A stretch of 64,000 nt of DNA from positions 124,001-188,000 of the forward strand of contig NZ_QKNX01000005.1 of assembly GCF_005239135.1 (NCBI RefSeq). Reading direction: 5' to 3'. The stretch is from Natronomonas salsuginis (lineage in GTDB: Archaea > Halobacteriota > Halobacteria > Halobacteriales > Haloarculaceae). Numbering within the stretch: the first letter of the stretch is position 1; the number at the start of each line of letters is the position of its first letter. A program made the position numbers and the translations under genes. Shown here in pieces: positions 2,592 to 38,857 of this stretch. Below the pieces are notes generated by a model. That model was given only the letters and a program-made list of their open reading frames with translations. It did no database searches and was not told where the DNA came from.

Positions 2592-2954
2592 TCACTGGGT
2601 GAGCGAGGATCGTCGGTTCTCGAACTCCTCGTCCGAGAGTTCACCCCGCGCGTAGCGCTCGCGGAGTTCAGCGAGTGCAGTATCCGTCTTCGAGGTCTGT
2701 TCTTCGCGGTTAGTCCCGTACATGAGGAGCAGGACGAGTCCGATCAGGAGCAACGGCCAGAGGAACATTCCGCCTCCGAGCATCCCGAAGCCGCCGAGTC
2801 CGCCCATTCCGCCCCAGCCGCCGCCCATCATACCGCCGCCGTAGCTTCCACTACCGTGGGCAGCAGCCGTTCCAGTCGCCGCGACCAACAGCGGAACAGC
2901 GAGTATCGTGAGTCGACGAGCAGTGCGTCCGATGTGCGTGGTGAGTTGCGTCAT
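2592..2954 (-). CDS. Exported Met/Gly-rich membrane protein with SHOCT domain
   Basis: The N-terminus is a Sec-type signal (LTILAVPLLVAATGTAAAHG), followed by a Gly/Met/Trp-rich segment (GGGMMGGGWGGMGG), one membrane helix (FLWPLLLIGLVLLLMYG) and a SHOCT tail (ELRERYARGELSDEEFE). Layout and tail match the proteins at 1267 and 22. It lies downstream of the exported Met/His-rich protein at 3010 on the same strand, about 55 bases apart. A copper-related role is inferred from composition and neighbours only. Confidence 0.75.
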   Translation of the reverse strand: MTQLTTHIGRTARRLTILAVPLLVAATGTAAAHGSGSYGGGMMGGGWGGMGGLGGFGMLGGGMFLWPLLLIGLVLLLMYGTNREEQTSKTDTALAELRERYARGELSDEEFENRRSSLTQ

Positions 2955-3009
2955 TATTGTGGATTGGTGAATTGCGTTCAGTCGAAGCGATCGAAACGGT
3001 CAGGGCCTA

Positions 3010-3330
3010 TCAGCAGTGGCCCTGCCCGTACATCCCGCCGTTGTAGTCGTCGTCAGTCCCGTCGTGGTATTCCTCGTCAGCCATGTCCTGGGCCATTTCG
3101 TCGACGGTCACACCCATGTGCGACTCCATCCACTCGACGCTACCAGGGCCCATGTGTTCGGTCATCTGTGCCTCCATCCACGTGGCCCATTCATCTGCGG
3201 TGGTATTGTCCGTGGGCGCGTCGTCTGCGGTCGTGTCAGTGCCGTGTGCGCTGACCGCGGGGGCGGCGAACGCGAGTCCGATGATCGCGAGTGCCACCAG
3301 CAGCCAGCGGCCGAGTTTGAAATTAGTCAT
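3010..3330 (-). CDS. Exported acidic protein with Met/His-rich tail
   Basis: The signal peptide (WLLVALAIIGLAFAAPAVSA) is followed by an acidic mature domain containing MEAQMTEHMG, WMESHMG and a GGMYGQGHC end. Repeated Met and His with one terminal Cys suggest a metal-binding secreted protein. No family is recognised. It stands upstream of the SHOCT protein at 2592 and probably shares its transcript. Its function is unknown; copper or silver binding outside the cell would fit the neighbourhood. Confidence 0.7.
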   Translation of the reverse strand: MTNFKLGRWLLVALAIIGLAFAAPAVSAHGTDTTADDAPTDNTTADEWATWMEAQMTEHMGPGSVEWMESHMGVTVDEMAQDMADEEYHDGTDDDYNGGMYGQGHC

Positions 3331-3565
3331 TGTCTTTCTCCTCGGTTACTCGTAGGACCGCTCGGGGGTTATCGACGTGGGTGTGAATCCACGCAGGAGA
3401 ACGTTCGAGAGCGTGTATAGAGCGTTATAACTGTTTTTCAGAGATGCGACCGTTCATATCCGCCGAATTCGAGGAGCTCCCCGCTTTTCCCACGTTTCGT
3501 GAACCGGCTCGGGGGCAGACCCTGCGGCAATTGGCCTGCTCGGCCTATTGAAAAAATAGTCCCCG

Positions 3566-32851: not shown

Positions 32852-34760
32852 GGTTTAGTTATAGACCTCAGCAGCTGAATTATAGACTATCCACAAACCC
32901 TTACCAAGCTCCGAAGCGTTGATTTTGTAATCTTTCCCAATACCTCGCATGAGTGGTTCTAGCGGCTCGCATCCTCGTGAGAGTCCACGAATGCGCTATC
33001 TGTGCGAAGCGTATCAGATTGGGATAGCTATCCGAAATAATCTCCCTGAAACTGACCTCGTCACCGCGTTCGAGCGTCTCGATCAATCAATCGATGCCAT
33101 CGAAGACGAGTATCCAGCGTGGCATCCTGCCCCGCTTTCCTTTCGCGCGATGGTGCTCTCGTTCATTTTCATGGAGATCACAGGCGACTCCTACGCAGCC
33201 TTCACACGTCGATTGACGCGACAACCCGAAGTCACCACAATCTTCGGATTCGGCCGTGTTCCTGACGAATCAGCATTCTCGCGGGCGTGGCGGAATCGAT
33301 TCGACAACGCTGTTCAGGAGTACGTGCAGACCGCGGCTCACTTCGTCGTCAAAGAGGTCCACGATTCCGACATCCCTGCACCTGAGGTTCGCCCCAAGGC
33401 AGAAATCGTCGACGAGCCTCCAGTAGAGGAGGACTCAGTGGAGAATGACCATTTCTCACAGGACGAGATCGTCCAGACGACGCGCCTCGCACGCGATCAC
33501 GCCTTCGGCTACTTCGAATCTGGGCGGGCCGACAACGCGTCCTACGAGGACACGCGGTTCTTCGAGTTACAGACCTTCATGGGGATGGTTCGGTGCGGCA
33601 CCGCCCAAGGAGCTGCGCGCTTCCAGTATCGGCGCGGCGCGGAGTACGGACCACACGGTGACACGCACCTTCGTGCTGTCAAGCAGTTCGACTCTGAAAA
33701 TCTCGTAGATGGATTCAATGAGACGACAGATCGCTTGCTCTCAGTTATCGCCTCCGAAGCATCCTTTCGTCGACCAGTAACCGCTGCGATCGACATCACG
33801 ACTATTCCGTACTACGGCGATGTCGAGGAGATGCCGATGGTCAGCGGGACGAAAGATGATGGGGGTCGCGCGTTCAAATTTGCGACGCTTTCGATCATCG
33901 GACAGAACATTCCGCTGATCTTAGCTGTCGAGCCGGTTCGAGAGAGTTCTGAGTGGGATGAGAACTCGTCGAATCAGATTCATCGCACTGTGCGGCGACT
34001 GGTTCGACGAGCGAAAGAACACGTTCCGATCGAGACAGTGCTGTGTGATCGGGAGTTCGATTCGATACGCGTGTTTCAGACGCTCTCAAACCTCGATGTG
34101 AACTACCTCATTCCGAAGCGAGTCTCCAGCTCTGAACGGGATGTACTCGAACAAATGGAGGAAGACGACCAAGAGGTGGCCGTTGAGTCAGCTTCTGTCC
34201 ATGTGGAATCTGGATCGCATCCAATGCGGCTCCTGTACGTGCCGTCGACGAGTGGTGAGGGGACGGCCGTCTTCGCGACGAATCTCCGAGTCGGTCCGGA
34301 GGAAGCCGAGTCGTTCTGTCAGCGCTACAGCCGCCGGTGGCAGATCGAGAGTGAGTACAAATCGATCAAAGGTGACTTTCTCGCCAAGACCTCCTCGAAA
34401 GACTACCGCGTTCGCCTGTTCTACTTCGTGTTCGCGATCCTCTTGTACAATATCTGGCGGCTCACCGATTTCCTGCTGAAAGCAGGTGTCGACGGAGAGA
34501 TGGACTACGCACCCGTGTTGACTGCGGGTGAGTGTGTTGAGCTCGTTGCCTCGTCGTTGATTCCACACGACTAACCCGCTGAGATCTCGCTGGGTCCGCC
34601 GCTCAAGAGTGACAACCGTATTCAGCAGCGCCAAAATCCGCGCAATTTCCTACGCTCGTCCGGTAGATGCGACCAGTAGGGATCCAAATCAGGACTGGTC
34701 GGTGAGAGGAACCACGAATTGATGATAATTCGACCTGAAACTGGCCTATCCTCCGAAACT
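32852..34760 (+). mobile_element. IS4-type insertion sequence
   Basis: The right boundary near 34760 is supported by a second diverged copy: the DNA after both transposase stops stays alignable until GGCCTATCCTCCGAAACT (34743-34760 here, about 49330-49347 there). The left end is tentative; GGTTTAG..TATAGACC near 32852 is a weak inverted match. No target duplication found. Confidence 0.55.
32949..34574 (+). CDS. IS4-superfamily DDE transposase
   Basis: 541 residues, full length by eye. The DDE residues are in AIDITTIPYYG (first Asp), TVLCDREFDSIRVF (second Asp) and YSRRWQIESEYKSIK, which fits the IS4 Y-x2-R-x3-E-x6-K signature. The C-terminal half is closely related to the remnant at 48615. 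The exact ISH group is not assigned. Confidence 0.85.
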   Translation: MSGSSGSHPRESPRMRYLCEAYQIGIAIRNNLPETDLVTAFERLDQSIDAIEDEYPAWHPAPLSFRAMVLSFIFMEITGDSYAAFTRRLTRQPEVTTIFGFGRVPDESAFSRAWRNRFDNAVQEYVQTAAHFVVKEVHDSDIPAPEVRPKAEIVDEPPVEEDSVENDHFSQDEIVQTTRLARDHAFGYFESGRADNASYEDTRFFELQTFMGMVRCGTAQGAARFQYRRGAEYGPHGDTHLRAVKQFDSENLVDGFNETTDRLLSVIASEASFRRPVTAAIDITTIPYYGDVEEMPMVSGTKDDGGRAFKFATLSIIGQNIPLILAVEPVRESSEWDENSSNQIHRTVRRLVRRAKEHVPIETVLCDREFDSIRVFQTLSNLDVNYLIPKRVSSSERDVLEQMEEDDQEVAVESASVHVESGSHPMRLLYVPSTSGEGTAVFATNLRVGPEEAESFCQRYSRRWQIESEYKSIKGDFLAKTSSKDYRVRLFYFVFAILLYNIWRLTDFLLKAGVDGEMDYAPVLTAGECVELVASSLIPHD

Positions 34761-35005
34761 GTGTTGCTAACGGTACAAACGCTTGAAAACCTAGTTATTA
34801 GTCGCTTCAAGCCATAGAAACAGTAATCTTCACTACAGACATTCATTATTTGTGTTTTACTAAACAATTAATTAATAATACCACACGCCAGTTACAACAC
34901 ATAACTATGCAAGTGAACAATACGTATCTATTAAATTGAACAATACATTGTTGTGCAATATATGTCTGACGAACACTCAACATGATTGAAATCGATGAAT
35001 GTCGT
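34761..35005. other. AT-rich gap with two TGAACAATAC repeats before a ParA remnant
   Basis: Between the IS4 end and the ParA remnant. It contains AGTGAACAATACG and TTGAACAATACATTGTTG, i.e. TGAACAATAC twice about 25 bases apart, the second followed by its inverse (AACAATACATTGTT). By position it could be what is left of a centromere or operator for the broken parA. No gene seen. Confidence 0.4.
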
Positions 35006-35304
35006 ATGTTGGCGTACTCAACGTACAGCGAGGCTGGTGGCGTCGGGAAAACCACCACGGCAGCGAACTTGGCCGTCTCGCACGCGCGCGGGTCTAAAAC
35101 CGCTTGTCGTCCCGCTCGTTCCACAGGATGGCGATCTCTCTCGGTTATTTCGCGTCGACGACGAGCGGACAGAGTCTGCCGATAATATCGTTCGTCATAT
35201 GATCCGGCGACCAAAGGGGGACTTCGATGGCCTCATTCGAACTGTCGAGGGGAAGGAGCCGCCGATGAGTAGCGGCTCCGACCTGACGCTGATCAGAGAT
35301 TACT
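35006..35304 (+). pseudogene. ParA-type ATPase remnant, frameshifted and truncated
   Basis: Starts MLAYSTYSEAGGVGKTTTAA (Walker A GGVGKTT) and runs to VSHAR. The frame then shifts: loss of one CG in the CGCGCG run near 35088 moves the rest (AGLKPLVVPLVPQDGDLSRL) to another frame. It continues to about DLTLIRDY, where the IS5-type element is inserted. Beyond the element the frame picks up only a few residues (SMMD), so the gene was already truncated. It is related to the intact ParA at 44790. Confidence 0.8.
35297..35304. repeat. Target-site duplication, left copy (AGATTACT)
   Basis: AGATTACT directly before the left end (GGCTCTGTTGAAATCCT) of the IS5-type element. The same eight bases follow the right end at 37244-37251. 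Confidence 0.9.
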
Positions 35305-35356
35305 GGCTCTGTTGAAATCCTCAGGGAGTTACAGATTCAGCCAGTAGTCTGACCGG

Positions 35357-36178
35357 ATGGAAACCCTCCTGAAATCGCGGTTGCTCCGATTCGTTGAGCA
35401 AGCGATGTACTTGGCACGTCGAGCTGTCGCTCGTTACTCCTCGAAGTTCTCAAAACGACGCTACACACTCCACCAGCACATCGTTCTACTCTGTCTCAAA
35501 GTTCGGAAGAACACGACCTACAGGACGCTCCTCGACGAACTCATCGAGATGCCCCGCATTCGGAAAGCCATCAATCTGGACGAACTCCCGTCACCCTCAA
35601 CGTTGTGTAAAGCGTGTAGCCGGCTCGATATGGCAGTCTGGCGTGTTATTCTCAACCTCTCAATTACGCTTCTCCCGACTAACGGTGTCGTCGGGATCGA
35701 CGCTTCCGGATTTGACCGCAGTTACGCCTCGAAGCACTACACGAAGCGAGCGAAATTGACGATTCAGCAGTTGAAAGTCACGCTTCTCGTAGGCACAAAG
35801 TCGAACGCGATTATCGACGTACACGTAACGACGACACGGAAACACGACTCACAGATTGCGCCGTCACTCATCAAGCGAAATTCCAGCGAAATAGCGGTTC
35901 TCCTTGGCGACAAAGGATATGACGACCAGAAGGTTCGTGCCCTAGCTCGAAAAGATGGTGTTCGTCCCCTGATCAAGCCCCGCGAGTTCTCGCCACTCCA
36001 CAAAGCGTGGAACGTTCGGTTGGACGGCGACCTCCACGGCCAACGGAGTCAGAACGAGACGGTGAACTCTCGCATCAAACGAAAGTACGGTGCATTCATT
36101 CGCTCAAGCCACTGGTGGAAGCAGTTCCGGGAACTCATTGTCGGCTGTCTCACTCACAACATCGACAAGACACTCTGA
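35357..36178 (+). CDS. IS5-family transposase
   Basis: 273 residues. DDE residues: GIDASGFDRSY (first Asp), LLGDKGYDDQK (second Asp) and the NETVNSRIKRKYG region (Glu). The C-terminus has WWKQFRELIVGCLTHNID, typical of haloarchaeal IS5 transposases. It begins about 50 bases inside the left inverted repeat. It appears intact. Confidence 0.88.
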   Translation: METLLKSRLLRFVEQAMYLARRAVARYSSKFSKRRYTLHQHIVLLCLKVRKNTTYRTLLDELIEMPRIRKAINLDELPSPSTLCKACSRLDMAVWRVILNLSITLLPTNGVVGIDASGFDRSYASKHYTKRAKLTIQQLKVTLLVGTKSNAIIDVHVTTTRKHDSQIAPSLIKRNSSEIAVLLGDKGYDDQKVRALARKDGVRPLIKPREFSPLHKAWNVRLDGDLHGQRSQNETVNSRIKRKYGAFIRSSHWWKQFRELIVGCLTHNIDKTL

Positions 36179-36200
36179 ACGTTAGATACAGAGGGCTCAA

Positions 36201-37109
36201 TTATCGGACGGCCCCAACTGCGTCAACACGCTCTTCGGCCTCAGTTAGTAGTGACTCAAGGTCGTCTGGTTTCCCTTCTAATTCGTAGAGCCGATCGATG
36301 TACCGTTCGTTTCCTGCCTCAGAATACGAGAAGCGACGATACAGGTCCATTACTGCGGCAACAGTCTCATCTGTTGTTTCGTGATGCCGAAGAAGTTGCA
36401 CTACGGGCGTCATATTGTCATCACGTAAATCTCGCTCCACGTCACGGATATCTTTGAACAAGAGGCGACGCGCACGGTACGTTCGGAGATCGTGGCGGAC
36501 CCGCGGTTTGGTTTCAGTGTCGAGGTCGGTGACGACGGCAGCTGTGTCTGCGAACGCATCGATGTCTCGGGATCGGTACGCATAGATCTGCTCGGCTGCT
36601 TGCTGTCGTTGATACTCCGCCCCAGCATCTTCCATCGACGCAAATAGCCGCTGTTCGACCAGGGGGATCTGGAATAGCGCGGTGAAATACTCGCGTAGCT
36701 GGTTTCCCACCTCGTCATGAGTTCCTGGTGGGCAGTTCTCGGCGAGGAGAACCGCCGAAAACAACGCGTTGACCGTGAGACCGATCCTGACCTGAGGCGT
36801 GAGTTCTTGCGTGTCTATGATATCATCGAGAACGTTAATACTGGCATCGAGTCCCGTAAGGAGTTGTGTCAGCGACTCCTCCAGCGGCTTGCCTAACTCC
36901 TGGGTATAGACTTTACAGACCGGGACCGTCCGGACGGACTTCCGTCCGCTCTCCCAGTCGTTGACGACCCCACGCAGGTGCGTATGGATCTCTGCGGTCG
37001 ATTCAATCGGAAGTTCTTCCCGCAACTGCCTTTCCCGGGCCGATACATCCTCGGCAAGGTCGGCGTAGTGTTGACCAATCTCGTCAGAGCCAACCGGATC
37101 TCCCATCAC
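36201..37109 (-). CDS. IS passenger gene: class 1 isoprenoid-synthase-like helical protein
   Basis: 302 residues, all-helical by composition. Two Asp-rich stretches recall class 1 isoprenoid synthases: INVLDDIIDTQELTPQVRIG (DDxxD) and LFKDIRDVERDLRDDNMTPV. They are spaced about 140 residues apart, as in prenyl diphosphate or terpene synthases. The N-terminus is a charged helical lead. It has its own promoter: a TATA-like ACATATAAG (plus reading, about 37133) lies about 25 bases before the start. It is convergent with the transposase, 22 bases apart. Substrate unknown; a non-catalytic relative is possible. Confidence 0.7.
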   Translation of the reverse strand: MMGDPVGSDEIGQHYADLAEDVSARERQLREELPIESTAEIHTHLRGVVNDWESGRKSVRTVPVCKVYTQELGKPLEESLTQLLTGLDASINVLDDIIDTQELTPQVRIGLTVNALFSAVLLAENCPPGTHDEVGNQLREYFTALFQIPLVEQRLFASMEDAGAEYQRQQAAEQIYAYRSRDIDAFADTAAVVTDLDTETKPRVRHDLRTYRARRLLFKDIRDVERDLRDDNMTPVVQLLRHHETTDETVAAVMDLYRRFSYSEAGNERYIDRLYELEGKPDDLESLLTEAEERVDAVGAVR

Positions 37110-37243
37110 GTTTTTTCTTGGCAGTCATAAATCACATATAAGACTGGTCATTCAGGAAGTATTACTAGTTGCTCTGTCTGCACACCTACCCAACAGCTGT
37201 TTCAGCGGGAAAGCTGTCGGAACAATAGGATTTCAACAGAGCC

Positions 37244-37251
37244 AGATTACT
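37244..37251. repeat. Target-site duplication, right copy (AGATTACT)
   Basis: Follows the right inverted repeat of the IS5-type element directly and equals 35297-35304. Confidence 0.9.
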
Positions 37252-38161: not shown

Positions 38162-38857
38162 GGTAGTGTTCAGATAAGCTGATTCCATGCGAAAACGAAG
38201 GATCGAAGCCAATTGTCGGCGGTGTCTGCTTCGGCGTTGCTGAAACAGTTTGAGAAACTGGTGTTCGTCGTTTTATCTCTCAAAATAGACGTTCGACACT
38301 ATTCCGATGTCTATGTTTTTCATATCTGAAATCGAGGCTGTGACGGCGACAGGCGTATTTCAATGAGTGGTAACCATCGATGAGAAACACGGCGTTGCCA
38401 ACGTCGTGTTTCTCGCGGAGTTCAGCAAAGAACGTTTGAGCGATTACGCTGTTTGTGGTTGGTTCAAGCGTTGTATACAGTAATTCGTTTGTTTCGGGAT
38501 CGATAGCAGCGTACAGCCAATACTGCTCGTCGTTGAGTCGGATCACAGTTCCGTCGACCGCGACGTGATCCGGACTCCGACCAGATTCAGGCTGTGGCTC
38601 TGCTTTGTGAATCCAGTTGTGAACGGTGGACCGAGCTCGACTGACACCGAATATTTCAAGAATCGAAACGGTATTCGAAAGTGATAAGCCAGCATGATGG
38701 AGCTGAATACCGAGCTTCATCAGCAGTTTCGGTGTCGCCTCTCGTTCCACAAAACCTAACTCGATATCGCTCAAACAGCTGTCGAGGCGGTCGTTTTCGG
38801 GCATAGAGCACTCAGAAAACGAACCGCCTCACTCTTCATCCTTATCTGAACACCGCC
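38162..38857 (-). mobile_element. IS6-family insertion sequence
   Basis: About 696 bases with imperfect terminal repeats: GGTAGTGTTCAGATAAG at 38162 and the complement of GGCGGTGTTCAGATAAG ending at 38857. No matching target duplication flanks it, so one end may have recombined. Confidence 0.75.
38170..38804 (-). pseudogene. IS6-family transposase, dead
   Basis: The first 174 residues read normally, with the DDE domain (HVAVDGTVIRLNDEQYW, FLIDGYHSLKYACRR, RHRNSVERLF). Then a TGA replaces an expected Arg codon (CGA in the conserved ERLFREIKRRT), and a one-base deletion follows a few codons later. The last frame carries TSFSNCFSNAEADTADNW and ends FAWNQLI at 38170. Transposition from this copy would need help from another. 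Confidence 0.85.

Follow-up and report, generated by a model that had tools for sequence, protein, structure and literature searches.

An insertion sequence (IS) of the IS5 family in the genome of Natronomonas salsuginis encloses a second gene of 302 codons between its transposase gene and its right end. The locus raises the question of whether this passenger is a peculiarity of one copy or the mark of a group of gene-carrying elements, and how such cargo may be gained. The window analyzed here, a stretch of 64,000 nucleotides, contains at 35305-37243 a single complete IS5-type element of 1939 bp with the following features.

35297..35304, no strand: left copy of the target duplication, 8 bp, AGATTACT
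35305..35321, plus strand: left terminal inverted repeat, 17 bp, GGCTCTGTTGAAATCCT, conserved clade-wide
35357..36178, plus strand: IS5-family transposase, 273 aa, frame intact, with the DDE-type motifs DASG (115), LLGDKGYDD (182) and NETVNSR (233)
36179..36194, plus strand: short block 3' of the transposase stop, ACGTTAGATACAGAG, kept in related copies; left border of the cargo slot
36201..37109, minus strand: passenger gene, 302 aa, GTG start or ATG at 37106; a rare haloarchaeal family
37135..37141, minus strand: TATA-like CTTATAT within the cargo, 27-33 nt upstream of the passenger GTG, by sequence inspection only
37178..37226, no strand: conserved subterminal right-end block; right border of the cargo slot
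37227..37243, minus strand: right terminal inverted repeat, 17 bp
37244..37251, no strand: right copy of the target duplication, 8 bp, AGATTACT

The 17-bp inverted repeats are perfect and AGATTACT is duplicated exactly at both flanks; at a predicted end, an exact duplication of 8 bp would arise by chance with a probability of about 1.5e-5. Features of IS5 membership are present, namely an IS5-type DDE transposase (E 3.1e-60 and 204 bits against a cut-off of 140 with the NCBIfam IS5 model NF033579; E 2e-12 with Pfam DDE_Tnp_1), short inverted ends and a short duplication. The first-pass annotation had regarded the whole 1939 bases as a single mobile unit with a passenger, and the perfect ends and the exact duplication bear this out; both ends belong to one subfamily, with no sign that they derive from two IS copies. 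ISs with passenger genes are a known kind of element, defined as transporter ISs (tIS) in PMC9330008, with one IS6-family example in PMC7986276. The passenger of a tIS lies between the ends and moves with them as one unit, as is seen here from the outer duplication of the window copy and from its mobile relatives. The window copy has one transposase and no internal ends, and hence no composite-transposon structure of two complete IS copies around the cargo. Integron-cassette features are also absent: the element contains no integrase, and the cargo borders have no general inverted repeat. The insertion site is the remains of a ParA-like gene (window 34982-35315) that had been frameshifted beforehand. 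The surrounding contig region is IS-dense, and the element is flanked by genes for a 541-aa DDE_Tnp_1 transposase (32949-34574) and an IS240/IS6-like transposase (38280-38804).

The passenger open reading frame (ORF) is longer than the longest ORF in 60 of 60 dinucleotide shuffles of the window cargo. The TATA-like box ascribed to the gene in the first-pass annotation is present, and its distance from the GTG matches the usual location in promoters of haloarchaeal leaderless genes. Scans for Sigma-70 promoters and intrinsic terminators, both ill-suited to archaea, gave no matches. The protein has no match in Pfam, NCBIfam, PDB sequences or PADLOC and no homologues in viral contigs; a PDB profile search returned weak unrelated matches only. 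Relatives were found, outside such elements, in 9 of about 390 sampled haloarchaeal genomes (the window's own counted) and in Haloferax mediterranei. The close subfamily (51-62% identity) has no conserved neighbors; one of its members (L144) adjoins a gene for a UbiA-family prenyltransferase. Members of the distant subfamily (31-39%) usually adjoin a gene for a conserved transcription regulator of the FilR1/HVO_A0261 type (L007, L147, L148, L149, L151).

The passenger had also been described as isoprenoid-synthase-like, with two Asp-rich stretches. The stretches are real, as D95/D99 and D220/D223/D227 are invariant in 11 sequences of the family. The passenger-family profile was compared with profiles built from haloarchaeal proteins; both Asp motifs fell in register with those of polyprenyl synthases (single-pair P 0.0027; a score attained by 0 of 300 shuffles), whereas the squalene/phytoene-synthase profile (P 0.23) and the UbiA profile gave no signal. 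In a control with the same tool, the known remote pair SQS/PSY versus polyprenyl synthase scored weaker (P 0.022). Because of the two invariant motifs and the weak polyprenyl-synthase match, the isoprenoid-synthase reading is plausible, even though no Pfam, NCBIfam or PDB family match accompanies it. We lean towards an isoprenoid-synthase-like protein, possibly a remote member of class I. It is nearly an even chance that the motifs are instead a metal or nucleotide site that arose by convergence in an unrelated helical family. A single-sequence structure prediction, made without homologues, gave an all-helical model of low confidence (pLDDT 38). The missing database and PADLOC matches and the silent squalene/phytoene-synthase profile point to an unrelated family, whereas the in-register motifs, the weaker score of the control pair and the prenyltransferase gene beside L144 point to the isoprenoid-synthase reading.

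A search of the same genome with the whole window element yielded three complete copies, the window's included, of 1939, 2767 and 1635 bp with duplications AGATTACT, TTATATTT and AATTCCGT, respectively. The 2767-bp copy on contig C2 (TTATATTT) carries a 307-aa lipoprotein-like gene, and the 1635-bp copy on contig C5 (AATTCCGT) a gene for a 163-aa low-molecular-weight phosphatase (ArsC-like, LMWPc E 7e-28). The three copies are alignable only over nucleotides 1-887, which comprise the left end, the transposase and a dozen bases, and over the last ~50 bp. Their cargos are mutually unrelated, and the window passenger gene occurs once in this genome.

The sole criterion for picking further relatives was similarity of the transposase. 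They came from GTDB genomes and a class-wide sample of 391 genomes, 191 of which have a transposase match at E 1e-60 or better. A copy was considered complete if both ends and the target duplication were found, with mismatches tolerated in the end search. This yielded 73 distinct complete copies from haloarchaeal genomes, with transposases 74-100% identical to the window's; the 8-bp duplication is exact in 71 of them and has one mismatch in the other two. Non-conserved DNA of 147-4200 bp (median 678), measured from the transposase stop to the last 50 bp, occupies the same slot in all 73. The sole cargo-less complete element encountered is a 938-bp outgroup whose transposase is 41% identical. 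The named members of the clade are ISHla2 and ISHxa2 (IS5 family; NCBI: IS5-like element ISHla2 family transposase), which have transposases of the same clade at 75-78% protein identity and the same 17-bp ends. In Halorubrum lacusprofundi the ISHla2-type unit measures 1193 bp and has a tiny 57-aa ORF after the transposase, in contrast to the 302-aa gene of the window copy and to the unrelated cargos of up to 4.2 kb elsewhere in the clade.

These counts revise two points of the first-pass annotation. Its assertion that the transposase is normally the only gene of related elements is untrue for this clade, where all complete copies have extra DNA, and the passenger is not a special feature of the window copy. 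A search of haloarchaeal copies for the same passenger, which it had proposed, found the window gene in none of the others and different cargo in all of them. Different cargo in practically every copy would explain the occurrence of the window passenger in one element only. With the slot of the other copies filled by unrelated genes, interest shifts from the single passenger gene to the clade of cargo-carrying elements.

Sister transposases at 65-67% identity (L265-L268) were also inspected for ends and duplications. L265, L267 and L268 (1628, 2765 and 1512 bp), which have perfect or near-perfect right ends, were left uncounted for want of a matching duplication. The layout of L268 (L268:5911-6420) suggests that cargo carriage may extend to sister clades: downstream of the 67%-identical sister transposase lie a gene for a universal stress protein and a perfect right end.

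The cargos of the clade are nearly all mutually unrelated. A cargo ORF exceeds a Pfam cut-off in 22 elements. Proteins of transport and signaling include sensor histidine kinases, MATE and CNNM transporters, a formate/nitrite transporter and a periplasmic binding protein; enzymes include a PLP enzyme, a glutathione transferase, methyltransferases, and GNAT and hexapeptide acetyltransferases. Among the other matches are two RibD_C proteins, a redoxin, an alpha/beta hydrolase, HTH_10 regulators and a type IV pilin. The longest cargo ORF exceeds all 60 shuffles in 33 of the 73 copies, and 21 of these 33 significant ORFs are convergent with the transposase. In eleven copies no ORF reaches 80 aa, and part of the cargo may thus be small, non-coding or decayed. 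PADLOC defense models matched one of ten cargo proteins tested, a methyltransferase, and none of the other nine. Some long cargos contain other transposase genes (L077, L107, L125, L186), so the inserted DNA is not all host gene cargo. L077 was considered as a case of capture and rejected; it is an L166-type element with a different IS5 inserted in its right end. At L077:4949-7200 an ISHla2-type element has its right terminal repeat broken by this IS5, whose duplication is GTTTCAAC.

Two sets of copies illustrate the mobility of the loaded unit. An identical 1304-bp element occupies two sites in genomes of two families, with duplications TTCTGAGT and AGAATGAC, and an identical 1412-bp element occupies two sites of one genome, with duplications AATCTCTC and TGAGAACC. 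The recurrence of identical loaded copies at several sites, each with its own duplication, shows, at the level of sequence comparison, that the unit can transpose whole, making an 8-bp duplication. It is very improbable that the window copy is an ordinary IS with a one-off hitchhiker and that other copies merely lie near genes, their outer ends being matched by chance. Transporter ISs with single passengers are indeed known (PMC9330008), and the end search tolerated mismatches, but an exact 8-bp copy of the left flank follows 71 of 73 outer ends, each at a chance of ~1.5e-5, and the identical units at different sites, each with its own duplication, contradict this explanation.

Cargo and transposase have separate histories in several pairs of copies. 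L100 from Haloferax larsenii and L179 are 99.8% identical over the left 939 bp and 100% over the right 60 bp, while their cargos of 766 and 2326 bp are unrelated; an inverted repeat of 12-17 bp, CTGCTGAATACAG / CTGTATTCAGCA, lies at the cargo borders. Near-identical transposase halves are similarly joined to unrelated cargo in L037/L171 and L060/L169. L008, one of the copies in the window's genome, shares 885 bp at 97.7% with L216, and the two differ in cargo and in the right end beyond the 17-bp repeat. The reverse situation is found in L056/L099, with 94% identical cargo and 83% identical transposases, and generally in L056/L099, L179/L181 and L190/L196, where cargos are 93-94% identical and transposases 13-18% different. 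Right-end types are loosely coupled to transposase clusters, and several copies are hybrid. Taken as a record of past events, these alignments show that cargo has been replaced over time, with or without the right end. The left border of the cargo lies 11-13 nt past the transposase stop in most copies; in several pairs of close relatives, the right border lies ~60-67 bp short of the right end.

The copies thus have a layout of left end and transposase (~887 bp), cargo (0.15-4.2 kb) and right end (~60 bp), and we infer that right-end skipping is the most likely route of cargo gain. The transposase would pair its own left end with a farther compatible 17-bp right end of another IS, so that the element's own right end, often mutated, would be bypassed and the DNA between carried along; the buried right end would subsequently decay or be deleted. 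The window cargo, the 302-aa gene with its own TATA-like promoter, would in this way probably stem from a haloarchaeal genome. Its donor was not found, and the nearest relatives (51-62% protein identity) sit outside such elements. Right-end skipping is preferred because of buried right ends, hybrid ends and one recognizable source-type locus. Right-end profiles detected buried ends in the complete copies L137, L173, L181 (two), L008, L080, L125 and L216, and none in reversed-sequence controls. The clearest case is the 5124-bp element L137, which consists of the left end, the transposase, a MATE gene, a buried decayed right end (2873-2931), a 2.19-kb segment and the outer right end. The segment is 95.5% identical to a chromosomal locus of another genome (L279) that contains a CNNM gene and a neighbor gene. 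This homology ends within the neighbor gene, exactly at the buried end; its other limit is a diverged IS-end-like 17-mer upstream of CNNM. Such a pattern is expected if the element had inserted in the neighbor gene and then left via its own left end and the distant right end.

Two observations concern the DNA of this locus itself. The CNNM/CorC locus (L137:4949-10072, L279:1410-3597) has 85-96% DNA identity over several haloarchaeal families, unusually high for chromosomal genes, and some genomes have an IS-end-like sequence upstream of it. Within the captured segment, a ~430-bp block (element ~2933-3365), separate from the CNNM gene, matches dozens of haloarchaeal genomes at 90-95% and is possibly another repeat.

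Other observations weigh against right-end skipping as the whole explanation. Most copies, the window's included, have no buried end. Right-end skipping alone does not predict the tidy left border past the stop codon, and the swaps that keep both ends (L100/L179, L037/L171) need a second step, such as internal deletion, gene conversion or template switching. Template switching has been proposed for the Pack-MULEs of plants, and it could in principle account for the exchange by itself, with host DNA copied between inverted-repeat-like slot borders during gap repair or replicative transposition. The near-fixed borders in several close pairs, and the pair L100/L179 that differs in cargo alone with its borders at an inverted repeat, agree with this model. 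We nevertheless consider it unlikely as the main route, as it does not predict complete buried or hybrid right ends, and over the whole set the inverted repeat at cargo borders is not above chance (mean best pairing score 7.5 versus 7.1 in shuffles). Still less probable, to a degree that we regard as slight, is a dedicated loading site similar to an integron cassette system, in which selfish addictive or host-beneficial genes are specifically recruited. The presence of cargo in every complete copy, many complete genes and the prevalence of convergent orientation (21/33) might be read in this way, but no integrase, attC-like repeat or common cargo signature was found, the cargo functions are heterogeneous, and nine of the ten proteins tested match no PADLOC defense model, the exception being the methyltransferase. 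On balance, the window element is probably a member of a haloarchaeal ISHla2/ISHxa2-like IS5 clade that acts as small gene shuttles with exchangeable cargo, right-end skipping being the likeliest route of gain.

The clade shares with tISs the single transposase, two ends, an internal passenger and movement as a unit. In contrast to the accounts of tISs (PMC9330008, PMC7986276), where passengers are occasional, cargo is present in 73 of 73 complete copies here and is exchanged between near-identical ones. One passenger of a Halorubrum lacusprofundi transposon, the gene Hlac_3088, is strongly expressed during virus infection (PMC10544981). It encodes a PGF-CTERM surface protein, and our H. lacusprofundi copy L156 (G064 C1:341842; L156:591-2394) similarly has the clade transposase followed by a 233-aa PGF-CTERM ORF for a surface-protein passenger. 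L156 fits the Hlac_3088 element, with the locus-tag correspondence deduced by us, and the transposon of Hlac_3088 very probably belongs to the present clade; PMC10544981 reports it as a single case, without the general pattern. Composite transposons and ISEcp1-type units also use a distant end to carry adjacent DNA, whereas the clade makes do with one transposase copy and with true 17-bp/60-bp right ends from related ISs, and its product requires no second full IS. In a 2019 survey, the element classes undetected in archaea included composite transposons that carry diverse passenger genes (PMC6563490). No description of a haloarchaeal IS clade with cargo as a regular and exchangeable component was found in the openly accessible papers searched.

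Plant Pack-MULEs are DNA transposons in which the interior between conserved ends is replaced by host gene sequence, and the clade resembles them in both respects. Unlike Pack-MULEs, it is prokaryotic and keeps its transposase gene, so its elements are autonomous. We tentatively suggest that Halobacteria may own a dedicated and widespread gene-capture vehicle, an autonomous prokaryotic counterpart of Pack-MULEs. It would be a minimal IS5 clade in which every copy is loaded with different host genes and one left end pairs promiscuously with interchangeable right ends. The many independent cargo swaps among copies with near-identical transposases open cargo capture to direct tests in Haloferax, which is genetically tractable. 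If the clade has this nature, cargo genes annotated as ordinary neighbors of transposases are mobile, and if every copy is a loaded shuttle, these elements of 1-5 kb would be an overlooked means by which genes pass from one haloarchaeal family to another.
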